DNA of 52,339 nucleotides. Source: Burkholderiaceae bacterium (GTDB lineage Bacteria > Pseudomonadota > Gammaproteobacteria > Burkholderiales > Rhodocyclaceae). Below, piece by piece: positions 2,359 to 47,633 of this stretch. A program made the translations under genes and the position numbers. Position 1 is the first letter of the stretch, and each line of letters opens with the position of its first letter. Location: NCBI GenBank assembly GCA_021738065.1, contig JAIPCT010000015.1, positions 1 through 52,339 of the forward strand, in the 5' to 3' direction. Below the pieces are notes generated by a model. That model ran no database searches and had not been told where the DNA came from. It was given only the letters and a program-made list of their open reading frames with translations.

Positions 2359-3619
2359 ACTGCTGATCGCGGGAGGCAGGCCGCTCTCGGGTGAGGTGGC
2401 GATTTCTGGCGCGAAGAACGCCGCGCTGCCGTTGTTGTGCGCGGCGCTTCTGACCAAGGAGCTGGTGACCTTCACCAATGTGCCGCAGCTCAACGATATC
2501 GGCACCATGTTGAGACTGTTGGCGCAGATGGGTGTCAAGGTATCGCGCGAGGCCTCAAAACTCGGCGCTGGCGATACGGTGACGCTGGACGCCGCGAATC
2601 TGGATAACGCGGTTGCGCCCTATGAAATGGTGAAAACCATGCGCGCCTCGATTCTGGTCCTCGGGCCGCTGGTGGCGCGCGCCGGCGAAGCCAAGGTGTC
2701 GCTGCCCGGCGGCTGCGCCATCGGTGCGCGGCCGGTGGATCAGCACATCAAGGGCCTGACCGCGATGGGTGCCGAGGTCAGCGTCGAACACGGCTACGTC
2801 CATGCCAAGGCACCACGGCTCAAGGGCGCCCGCCTGTTCACCGACATGGTGACCGTCACCGGTACCGAGAACCTGATGATGGCCGCCTGTCTGGCGCAAG
2901 GCGAAACCGTGATCGAGAATGCGGCGCGCGAGCCGGAGGTGGTCGATTTGGCCAATTGCCTGGTATCCATGGGCGCCCGCATCTCGGGTGCGGGCGGCGA
3001 CGTGATCCGCATTCAGGGCGTGGCGGCCTTGCACGGCACCACGCATCGCATCATGCCCGATCGGATCGAGACCGGCACCTATCTGTGCGCCGCGGCTGCC
3101 ACCGGCGGTGAAATCCGTCTTACCGGCGCCTCGGCGGCCAATCTGGACGCGGTGATCGACAAGCTGATGGATACCGGTTGCGAGATAGTCGCCGAGCGCG
3201 ATGCGATTCGCCTCAAAGCGCCGCGGCGATTGGCGGCCGTGAGCATTCGCACCGCGCCCTATCCGGCCTTTCCTACCGACATGCAGGCCCAGTTCATGGC
3301 GATCAATTCCGTGGCCGAAGGTACCGCGGTGATACGCGAAACGATTTTCGAGAACCGCTTCATGCACGCGGTGGAACTGATTCGCCTCGGCGCCGACATC
3401 AAGATCGACGGCAATACCGCATTCGTTACCGGGCGGCCGGCGCTCGACGGCGCCACAGTCATGGCGACCGATTTGCGCGCTTCTGCCAGCCTTGTCATTG
3501 CCGGACTGGTGGCACAGGGTGAAACGTTGATCGAGCGCATTTATCACCTCGATCGGGGCTACGAGGGCCTGGAGCAGAAGCTGGCCGCTTTGGGCGCCGA
3601 CATTCGCCGGGTAAAATAG
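2351..3619 (+). CDS. murA: UDP-N-acetylglucosamine 1-carboxyvinyltransferase
   Basis: A 422-residue enzyme of normal length for MurA, which transfers enolpyruvate from PEP to UDP-GlcNAc in the first committed step of peptidoglycan synthesis in the cytoplasm. The substrate-binding Lys22-Asn23 lies in [11 protein letters not shown], and the catalytic, fosfomycin-reactive Cys122 lies in [17 protein letters not shown]. The protein ends with the usual [15 protein letters not shown]. The gene overlaps ibaG by 8 nt and is followed 4 nt later by hisG, so it is probably transcribed with both. Codons for residues 69-77 contain a one-mismatch copy of the window's short dispersed repeat. Confidence 0.97.
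2557..2583 (+). repeat. Short dispersed repeat, copy 1 (variant)
   Basis: AAACTCGGCGCTGGC at 2558-2572 differs from the repeat core AAAGTCGGCGCTGGC at one base, and the downstream GATACGG also matches the family. It lies in sense orientation inside murA and encodes KLGAGDT. Confidence 0.6.
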
Positions 3620-3623
3620 TGTC

Positions 3624-4265
3624 ATGAGCGGAATCACGATTGCCCTGTCCAAGGGCCGCATTTTCGAAGAAACCCTGCCCCTGCTTGCGGCGGCTGGCAT
3701 CGTTCCGGCGGAAGATCCGGAAAAATCGCGCAAGCTGATCATCGGCACCAATCGCGATGACGTCCGCGTCGTCATCGTTCGTGCCTCCGACGTACCGACC
3801 TATGTGCAATACGGCGCGGCCGATCTCGGCATCGCCGGCAAGGACGTTCTGCTTGAGCACGGCGGCATCGGCTTGTACCAGCCGCTGGATCTGAATATAG
3901 CCAAATGCCGGATGTGCGTCGCGGCGCCCGCCGGTTTCGACTATGCCGCGGCGGTCCGCTCCGGCGCCCGCTTGCGCATTGCGACCAAGTACATTGCCGT
4001 CGCGCGCGAACACTTTGCGGCCAAGGGTGTGCATGTCGATCTGATCAAACTGTACGGCTCCATGGAACTGGCGCCGCTGGCGGGCCTGGCCGAAGCCATC
4101 GTCGATCTGGTATCCAGCGGCGGTACGCTCAAGGCCAACAATCTGGTCGAAGTCGAAGAAATTATGAACATTTCATCGCGGCTGGTGGTGAATCAGGCGG
4201 CGCTGAAAATGAAGCGCGATCTTCTGCAACCGGTGATCGCCGCCATCGAAGGCGCAATAAAGTGA
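3624..4265 (+). CDS. hisG: ATP phosphoribosyltransferase, short form
   Basis: A 213-residue HisG lacking the C-terminal ACT-like regulatory domain of the roughly 300-residue long form. It joins ATP and PRPP in the first step of histidine synthesis. The PRPP-binding segment [14 protein letters not shown] is at residues 161-174, preceded by [13 protein letters not shown]. Short-form enzymes work only in complex with HisZ, a HisRS paralogue that also gives feedback inhibition; no hisZ is in this window, so it must be elsewhere. The last bases overlap the GTG start of hisD. Confidence 0.96.
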
Positions 4266-5557
4266 TCCGCCGCTGGTCGACGGGCGATGCTGGCTTTGTG
4301 GGGGCGCTTGACGCACTGCTGCATTTCGATCATTCGACGGACGATGCCATCGAACTGACCGTTGCCGAGATTCTCGGCAGGGTGCGCGCCGAAGGCGATG
4401 CCGCGGTGCTTGAATACACCCGCCGCTTCGATCATCTCGAGGCGGCCGCACTGGCCGAACTGGAGTTGCCCGCAAGTCAATTGCGCGAAGCACTGGACCA
4501 TCTGCCGGCCGCGCAGCGTTCCGCGCTCGAAGCTGCCGCACAGCGAGTGACGTCTTATCACGAGCGGCAGAAGCTCGAATCGTGGAGTTTCACCGAAGCC
4601 GATGGCACGCGTTTGGGCCAGAAAGTCACGTCGCTGGATCGAGTCGGTCTCTACGTACCGGGTGGCAAGGCCGCCTATCCAAGCTCGGTGCTGATGAACG
4701 CTTTGCCGGCGAAGGTTGCAGGTGTCGGCGAGTTGATCATGGTGGTGCCGACACCGCGCGGCGAAAAGAATGCACTGGTCCTGGCTGCCGCCTGTCTGGC
4801 CGGAGTCGATCGGGTATTTACCATCGGTGGCGCGCAGGCGGTGGCTGCGCTGGCCTATGGCACGCAAACCATTCCGCAAGTCGACAAGATCGTCGGCCCC
4901 GGCAACGCCTATGTGGCGGCGGCCAAGCGTCGTGTGTTCGGTACGGTTGGCATCGATATGGTCGCCGGCCCCTCGGAAGTGCTGATCATCGCCGATGGCT
5001 CGGCCAATCCCGATTGGGTGGCGATCGATCTATTCGCCCAGGCCGAGCATGACGAACTGGCGCAGGCCATTTTGTTGAGTCCGGATGCGGATTTCATCAC
5101 ACAGGTTGCGGCCAGCATCGAGCGCTTGTTGCCGGCCATGCCGCGCCGCGAAGTGATTGCCGCTTCGCTCAAGGGACGCGGCGCCTTGATCCAGGTGGCC
5201 GATCTTGACGAGGCGTGCTCTCTGGCCAACCGCATCGCGCCCGAACATCTTGAACTGGCTCTGGACGATCCCGCGCCGCTGGTGGACAAGATTCGTCACG
5301 CCGGCGCCCTATTTATCGGCCACTACGCATCGGAATCGCTCGGCGACTACTGTGCCGGTCCAAACCACGTGCTGCCGACCTCCCGCAGCGCGCGATTCTC
5401 GTCGCCACTCGGCGTTTACGATTTCCAGAAGCGCAGCAGCGTGATCGAAGTCTCGGTGGCCGGCGCCCAAACCCTGGGACCGATCGCCGCAACCCTGGCG
5501 CACGGCGAAGGACTGGCGGCGCACGCCCGCGCAGCGGAGCTGCGCATCAAGCCTTAG
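4262..5557 (+). CDS. hisD: Histidinol dehydrogenase
   Basis: A 431-residue protein of normal HisD length, performing the last two steps from L-histidinol to histidine with NAD+ and Zn2+. The GTG start at 4262 overlaps the hisG stop and gives the expected N-terminus; an upstream in-frame extension would lie wholly inside hisG. Family landmarks are [29 protein letters not shown], the zinc-site region LFAQAEHDE, and [16 protein letters not shown]. The 3' end converges on the inverted hisC gene with 32 nt between them, which contain an inverted repeat. The last codons include GCGCATCAAGCC, which is repeated just after the stop. Confidence 0.97.
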
Positions 5558-5563
5558 TCGGCG

Positions 5564-46598: not shown

Positions 46599-46607
46599 GG
46601 AAAAATT

Positions 46608-47504
46608 ATGTCAATCCTCATCAACAAAGACACCAAAGTCATTACCCAGGGCATCACCGGCAAGACGGGCCAGTTTCATACCGAGAAATGCCAGGAATAC
46701 GCCAACGGCAAGAACTGCTTCGTGGCGGGCGTGAATCCGAAAAAAGCTGGCGAAGAGGTATTGGGCATCCCGATTTTTGGTTCGGTCAAGGAGGCCAAGG
46801 CACAAACCGGTGCCACGGTTTCCGTGATCTACGTGCCGCCCGCCGGCGCCGCCGCTGCGATCTGGGAGGCCTGCGAGGCCGACCTCGATCTGGCGATCTG
46901 CATCACCGAAGGCATCCCCGTGCGCGACATGCTGATCGTGCGCAACCAGATGCGAGCCAAGGAAGCCGCCGGCGGCAAGAAGACGCTGCTGCTCGGACCG
47001 AACTGCCCCGGCCTCATCACACCCGACGAAATCAAGATCGGCATCATGCCCGGTCACATCCACCGCAAGGGCCGCATCGGCGTGGTCTCGCGCTCCGGCA
47101 CGCTGACCTATGAGGCCGTGGCGCAGCTCACCGAAATCGGCCTCGGCCAGTCTTCCGCAGTCGGCATCGGCGGCGACCCGATCAACGGCCTCAAGCATAT
47201 CGACATCATGCGTGCCTTCAACGACGATCCGGACACCGATGCAGTCATCATGATCGGCGAAATCGGCGGTCCCGACGAAGCGGAAGCCGCGATCTGGTGC
47301 AAGGACAACATGAAGAAGCCGATTGTCGGTTTCATCGCGGGAGTGACCGCGCCGGCCGGCAAGCGCATGGGTCACGCGGGCGCGTTGATTTCCGGCGGTG
47401 CCGATACCGCCGACGCCAAACTGGCCATCATGGAGGAGTGCGGCTTTACAGTGACGCGCAATCCTTCCGAAATGGCCAAGCTGCTCAAAGGCCTGCTGAA
47501 GTAA
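46608..47504 (+). CDS. sucD: Succinyl-CoA synthetase, alpha subunit
   Basis: A 298-residue CoA-binding subunit. [14 protein letters not shown] is the N-terminal nucleotide-fold motif, and the phosphohistidine lies in [14 protein letters not shown]. The protein ends in [11 protein letters not shown]. With SucC it forms the functional synthetase. An intrinsic terminator lies about 190 nt downstream. Confidence 0.98.
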
Positions 47505-47603
47505 GCAATGCGGAACACTGGGCGGCACGCTTCGGCCAAGAGTTTCCGCTGAAGGCGGCCGCATTGGCATTTGTTCGGATAGCGCATCGTAATTTTGTTG
47601 CCC

Positions 47604-47633
47604 AAAAGTCGGCGCTGGCACCACGGCGACAAA
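47604..47633 (+). repeat. Short dispersed repeat, copy 8
   Basis: The exact core lies at 47605-47619, followed by ACCACGGCGACAAA. It is intergenic, so this copy cannot be due to protein constraint. Confidence 0.75.

Follow-up and report, generated by a model that had tools for sequence, protein, structure and literature searches.

A long bipartite repeat of Sulfuritalea and its sister genera, proposed as a DNA uptake sequence with dialects

Introduction

Contig JAIPCT010000015.1 carries a 15-mer, AAAGTCGGCGCTGGC, dispersed over several genes on both strands, and the locus thereby raises the question of what this repeated sequence is and what it does. The window referred to below is the whole 52,339-nt stretch analysed. 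The 15-mer proved to be contained in a longer, bipartite element, AAAAGTCGGCGCTGGCGANACGGCGA, with 22 near-fixed positions over 24 bp and a favoured A on either side. Because the element is dense, present on both strands, limited to one clade, split into dialects, born by substitution, read in several coding registers and decaying in one species, we propose that it is probably a DNA uptake sequence of Sulfuritalea and sister genera. An initial annotation of the window had named an uptake-like sequence among several possible roles, and this is the one that the evidence supports best.

The element and its copies in the window

The window belongs to G000 (the own genome), a draft metagenome-assembled genome (MAG) of 3,395,880 bases in 148 contigs, 87.6% complete. 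The own sample consisted of the window and stretches L143-L162 (448,339 bases, 13% of the genome), picked from contigs listed with the 15-mer. For comparison, G002, a single-contig complete chromosome of 3.80 Mb from the same genus, was sampled in 20 regularly placed 20 kb stretches (400 kb). In an alignment of 36 exact own copies, G stands at position 15 in 92%, ACG at positions 18-20 in 36/36 and GCG at positions 21-23 in 86-94%, while positions 16 and 17 are variable and the outer flanks are near background beyond the end A's. A weight matrix from the 448,339 own bases reads ...aAAAgTCGGCGcTGGcGa.ACGgCGa..., and that from the 400,000 bases of G002 is nearly identical. The consensus is non-palindromic. 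Thus the repeat of the initial annotation was real, and the element is longer than the 15-mer.

Elements were counted at four or fewer mismatches to the 22 fixed positions, with the reversed pattern as control. Under this longer definition the window holds seven elements:

2558-2581, plus strand: in a murA-type gene (2351-3619, plus), sense, reading KLGAGDT; 2/22 mismatches
5720-5743, minus strand: in a hisC-type aminotransferase gene (5590-6657, minus), sense, in another codon register, EKSALAL; 0 mismatches
11268-11291, minus strand: antisense in a tatB-type gene (10972-11376, plus), reading VSPAPTF; 0 mismatches
23921-23944, minus strand: antisense in a NIF3-like gene (23511-24272, plus); 1 mismatch
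25848-25871, plus strand: in an ankyrin-repeat gene (24879-26042, plus), sense, reading KVGAGET; 0 mismatches
33996-34019, plus strand: antisense in msrA (33863-34423, minus), reading AVSPAPTF; 0 mismatches; the site compared across 25 genomes
47605-47628, plus strand: intergenic, between a CoA-ligase gene (46608-47504, plus) and a CHASE2/protein-kinase gene (47812-50547, plus); 1 mismatch
41849-41863, plus strand: partial look-alike, 13/15, second half absent; judged a non-member

All six exact 15-mers, the one-mismatch copy at 2558 and the 13/15 copy at 41849 were recovered exactly where they had been reported, and the gene names given with them agree with Pfam matches (EPSP-synthase family for the murA type, class I/II aminotransferase, TatA/B, NIF3, ankyrin and MsrA). 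Two copies had been counted as intergenic; only that at 47605 is a true intergenic element, the sequence at 41849 having no second half. At three or fewer mismatches the 15-mer has 16 matches in the window, compared with a mean of 3.53 and a maximum of 11 in 100 dinucleotide shuffles.

Abundance and placement

The element is strongly over-represented genome-wide and on both strands, as would be expected of an uptake sequence. The own sample holds 95 copies, of which 31, 36, 14, 9 and 5 have 0 to 4 mismatches, and the G002 sample holds 85, divided as 18, 29, 25, 9 and 4; the control gave 0 in both. At 5-7 mismatches the own-sample counts are close to the control. Copies are 1.4-1.5 times as dense in the own sample as in the complete assembly (15-mer 104.8 vs 71.6 per Mb; 22-position form 73.6 vs 52.7). 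For G002, sample and whole chromosome agree in the 22-position form (80.0 vs 79.4 per Mb) but not in the 15-mer (62.5 vs 39.7). Ratio-corrected estimates come to about 500 elements in the own assembly (about 150 per Mb) and about 800 in G002 (about 212 per Mb).

Synonymous-codon shuffles fail to account for the copies in genes. Codons were re-dealt among all called genes over 40 rounds, with proteins and pooled codon use kept; gene calls came from a simple script, so that frame counts are approximate. The own sample has 49 genic elements, against a shuffled mean of 12.75 (maximum 19), and G002 has 56 against 12.5 (maximum 19). For exact 15-mers the own sample has 26 genic copies where shuffling gives 0.175 on average (maximum 1); in G002 the figures are 16 and 0.125. 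The genome-wide count and the codon-aware comparison had both been suggested in the initial annotation, and both speak for a genuine repeat: the whole own genome contains 112 + 131 = 243 exact 15-mers, with none of the reversed pattern, and the observed numbers lie far above the codon-aware expectation.

Like uptake sequences, the element occurs in coding and non-coding DNA and is enriched in the latter. Intergenic copies make up 46/95 in the own sample and 28/85 in G002, where called genes cover 85-87% of bases and non-coding DNA 13-15%. Gaps between convergent genes are richest (1.19 per kb in the own sample, 1.66 in G002) and divergent gaps are poor (0.10 and 0.40). At five or fewer mismatches the commonest genic registers are KVGAGDTA in sense (25 own, 30 G002) and AVSPAPTF in antisense (16 own, 13 G002), and all six codon registers are found in own genes. 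Assigned by the local sign of GC skew, the G002 copies divide 36 vs 49 between strands (two-sided binomial p 0.19), so that the orientation towards replication that had been suggested for checking did not emerge in this weakly powered test of 85 copies. Over the 20 kb stretches of G002, copies are spread more evenly than chance would give (mean 4.25 per stretch, variance 2.51), and each of the 20 has 1-8.

A seven-copy head-to-tail array, with copies 24-25 bp apart, lies in L151 (G000:C38) at 11466-11636 between HflX-type GTPase and aminopeptidase N-type genes (names by eye). A close-pair pattern requiring a perfect first copy found none in the own genome; the array was found by script instead.

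Distribution, dialects and loss

The exact 15-mer is present in 31/31 genus genomes examined (3 to 243 copies). Outside the genus it was found in 2/30 genomes, one copy each, and the reversed control gave four single matches in the 61 genomes. A survey of 297 genomes of the family found 23-302 copies of the 22-position C form in 12/13 genus members drawn, the thirteenth, G016, having 1. Many copies of the C form were also found in genera g32, g62, g70 and g88 and in part of g43; any match occurred in 70/297 genomes, and the control was 0 in every row. Among 399 genomes of the order (13 of the family), 14 of the 386 outside the family, namely G348, G395, G474, G510 and ten others, held 1-4 exact copies of the 22-position word, with a control of 0. 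Copies outside the carrier family may represent transferred DNA or MAG contamination.

A 24-mer scan of a genome collection of 84,980 species returned at least 112 stretches. Among the 80 matches listed, most are MAGs titled Sulfuritalea, Sulfurisoma, Rhodocyclaceae, Rhodocyclales or Betaproteobacteria, with single MAGs titled Zoogloea, Sulfurimicrobium and Gammaproteobacteria. In the NCBI taxonomy, Sulfuritalea is placed in the Betaproteobacteria, family Sterolibacteriaceae. The most frequent 11- and 12-mers of element-free sister genera (46-160 kb samples, G031-G036) included nothing comparable.

The element is not spelled alike throughout the clade, and at least three spellings, or dialects, exist. 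The GTTGGC dialect, AGTTGGCGCTGGCGNNACGGCG, has 192, 216 and 224 copies in G001, G015 and G027, compared with 0-3 for the remaining 28 genomes of the genus; the same three genomes are poor in the C form, with 17-24 exact 15-mers. A third spelling occurs in the g43 genomes G072 and G132, where the C form ending in G has only 1 and 2 copies, rising to 56 and 152 if A is allowed as the final base and either C or T at the sixth position. The places listed in these genomes end in ACGGCA, and the same core is among the top words of blind samples (120 and 60 kb). Clade specificity combined with related dialects is what an uptake sequence would lead one to expect.

One genome of the genus has nearly lost the element. 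G016, 99% complete, has 3 exact 15-mers genome-wide, and in 194 kb of it no element is perfect while 8 have 1-4 mismatches, against 1 in the control. Five sites orthologous to copies in the own genome or G002 show 10, 3, 5, 4 and 3 mismatches. From these alignments, we read the look-alikes as probable relics of a lost motif. No new abundant 12-mer that might serve as a dialect of its own was found in the 194 kb. Within this material (L183-L185, L263-L275), the CTG triplet is changed in 6/8 remaining look-alikes. Loss of competence was considered as a cause and rejected, ComEC being intact in G016.

Origin by substitution in place

The msrA site was compared in depth. Of 28 searched genomes 25 were aligned; three g43 genomes with distant paralogues only were omitted. 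Motif-rich genomes of five genera have 0-3 mismatches at this site in 16/16 cases. In motif-poor genomes (0-1 copies genome-wide) the segment is of equal length and the best match anywhere in the gene has 7-10 mismatches, in 8/8 cases. In G016 the site has 8 mismatches and eight inserted residues, within a frame flagged with one stop. The equal length of the segment in motif-poor genomes indicates that the element was made there by base changes in place and was not inserted. This is the origin expected of an uptake sequence, namely point mutation followed by recombination, where the mutation step rests on one site examined in depth and the recombination step is presumed. The initial annotation had also considered a REP-like relic (repetitive extragenic palindrome, REP), which is contradicted by the msrA comparison and by the sequence being kept at orthologous places. 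It had further asked whether distant orthologues carry the same codons; at the compared sites, motif-poor family members differ.

Orthologue pairs were also found with the element masked, 23 in all, of which 11 keep the element at four or fewer mismatches. It is kept in 6/6 alignments between the own genome and G002 (three sites, each counted both ways), in 0/5 between either of these and the motif-free G034 (5-11 mismatches) and in 3/5 involving G016. A larger set, in which 104/127 pairs kept it, is biased because many loci were fetched for their motif content.

The proposed uptake system

Uptake sequences have been described for Pasteurellaceae and Neisseriaceae (PMC1939737, PMC7811141), where biased uptake together with recombination is held to give a pattern of this kind (PMC3630211, PMC1939737). 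By analogy, the element would be a tag read by the natural-transformation machinery, presumably by a DNA receptor associated with the type IV pilus. Tagged DNA would be taken up preferentially and then recombined into the chromosome. Biased transformation could in this way spread any point mutation that creates or improves a tag, and mismatched copies could be re-converted. Tags would accumulate at permissive sites, in intergenic gaps and at tolerant codons, mainly those reading KVGAGDTA or AVSPAPTF. Dialects would follow from a change in reader specificity, and a loss of preference would leave decaying look-alikes such as those of G016.

The Neisseriaceae DNA uptake sequence (DUS) has eight dialects and the receptor ComP (PMC3630211). 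As far as the cited accounts describe it, the element resembles DUS in its many dispersed copies on both strands, many of them genic, in dialects a few bases apart between species groups and in holding the CTG triplet that is the core common to all DUS dialects. It differs in its otherwise unrelated sequence, in its 22 near-fixed positions over 24 bp compared with 10-12 bp, and in the family that carries it. Set by eye against the Neisserial DUS GCCGTCTGAA and dialects as quoted in PMC1939737, it shares little beyond the CTG triplet. A further difference from DUS is that ComP_DUS pilins fail to track the element, with uptake and receptor here presumed.

The Pasteurellaceae uptake signal sequence (USS) is AAGTGCGGT, with a second version (PMC1939737). 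Like USS in that account, the element is overrepresented, dispersed and commoner outside genes than expected. It has another sequence, a second part of ACGGCG with no AT-rich tract, a lower density and a home in the class Betaproteobacteria. Both signals are also alike in that a second conserved stretch follows the core; in its extended form the H. influenzae USS is about 29 bp long with AT-rich tracts.

A literature search, which included the 12-base core and its complement, gave among the matches listed no report of the sequence, nor any of an uptake sequence from these bacteria; its scope excluded most subscription papers and bioRxiv preprints. It seems to us an evenly balanced matter whether the Betaproteobacteria around Sulfuritalea possess a third, independently evolved uptake-specificity system, with an unusually long bipartite signal, at least three dialects, one species losing it and a receptor outside the ComP-type arrangement. 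If true, a third, unrelated signal with a longer core would show repeated evolution of uptake specificity. The dialect switches and the one loss would then be natural replicates for testing drive against selection, and the element would allow DNA that has left these bacteria to be traced. The uptake proposal, if true, also predicts natural competence, on which the matches listed in the literature search included no report for this group.

Machinery and evidence against uptake

ComEC is over the cut-off in 29/31 genus genomes and several prepilins are present; the own PilE matches the Pfam ComP_DUS family (6.6e-12). The ComP_DUS paralogues were extracted, and no set separates the dialects (by eye, without a tree). 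A prepilin of 255-267 aa (L256 2040-2807 / L260 2800-3603) is the only extracted one common to the own genome and G002 (75% identity) that has no blastp partner among the extracted G016 prepilins. The own gene for this prepilin, L256 2040-2807 (G000:C50), has the element in its leader peptide (MTTAVSPAPTFRQRGFTLIE).

Several observations weigh against the uptake proposal. Neither of two candidate readers proved diagnostic. ComP_DUS-family PilE (PF16732) is present in 35/36 genomes, motif-rich and motif-poor alike, and, occurring with or without the motif, these pilins do not identify the reader. The 255-267 aa prepilin has homologues in 43/46 genomes, including motif-poor ones and G016, and no match in two motif-rich genomes, G010 (99% complete) and G003 (82%). 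A comEA-type domain is over the cut-off in only 2/26 genomes, with weaker matches in 21 more, and G016 has lost the motif yet kept ComEC. The chain from tag to receptor, uptake, recombination and drive is one that we infer. Neisseria DUS has a density of about one per kb; the element, at about 150-210 per Mb, is sparser, and its fixed part is longer. Among the masked orthologue pairs, those involving g43 genomes of the other dialect keep it in 2/7 cases. Spacing in the own sample is near random (coefficient of variation 0.95, seven-copy array included). Element-free gaps were considered as mobile islands and rejected: 8, 8 and 2 proteins scanned in the three longest gaps belong nearly all to ordinary families, so that avoidance of mobile DNA is unsupported. 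Phage-type contigs also carry the element.

Among IMG/VR viral contigs (L354-L473), at least 120 stretches have the element; 1.09 Mb of such stretches, selected for its presence, contain 186 copies. One copy lies inside a large phage-family gene (L382) and another between two tail genes (L376).

Alternative explanations

The best alternative to uptake, although we consider it unlikely, is that selection maintains the element as a binding site for an intracellular protein of chromosome organisation, segregation or recombination (nucleoid-associated, ParB/SMC, Chi- or KOPS-like; KOPS, FtsK-orienting polar sequences). A 22-position sequence kept at orthologous places and the fairly even spacing in G002 would suit such a site, and the reader and uptake steps of the uptake proposal are themselves inferred. 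Chi and KOPS are 8-mers oriented with replication. The element is like them an exact word in many dispersed copies, but 22 of its positions are near-fixed, and the weak GC-skew test given above showed no clear strand bias. No macrodomain is seen either, with copies in every G002 stretch. It would also be unusual for an essential architecture signal to sit in many genes at a cost in amino-acid choice, to switch dialect within a genus and to be nearly absent from a genome as complete as G016. The protein-binding site of the initial annotation therefore holds in the broad sense that is necessarily true of any such signal, whereas a replication-oriented or macrodomain site is unsupported.

It is improbable that the element is a self-marker shielding DNA from a defence or degradation system. 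Its density, self-specificity and dialects would fit, and phage-type contigs would be expected to carry it if carriage benefits phages; one signal per several kb would presumably leave many short DNAs unmarked.

Still less credit is given to a dispersed selfish repeat that inserts copies, of the kind of REP, miniature inverted-repeat transposable elements (MITE) or Correia elements, although the sequence is repeated, enriched between genes (own 46/95) and once arranged in a tandem array of seven. Insertion predicts empty orthologous sites, whereas the msrA segment is of equal length in 8/8 motif-poor genomes (one site in depth), several element-free orthologues elsewhere also align gap-free (by eye), and conservation ends at the element edges. 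REP and bacterial interspersed mosaic elements (BIME), Correia elements and HIP1 insert or are short palindromes; the element is likewise a dispersed short repeat, unlike them in its substitution origin at msrA and its non-palindromic consensus.

Codon bias, a peptide motif or chance can be dismissed, for although the KVGAGDTA register is preferred and protein-keeping shuffles retain about a quarter of genic copies, the observed counts exceed all 40 shuffles, six codon registers are used in own genes, about half of own copies are intergenic and the reversed control is 0.

Other repeats

Further repeated words were noticed in the genomes sampled. G002 (L163-L172) has a second dispersed repeat around GTAGCTCCCTCTCTCACCCCGGA, the 12-mers of which recur 15-16 times in 200 kb. 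In G021 (L197-L199), the words GTTTCAAGCCC and TCACTGGGATA occur 7-8 times in 60 kb, possibly as another repeat array.

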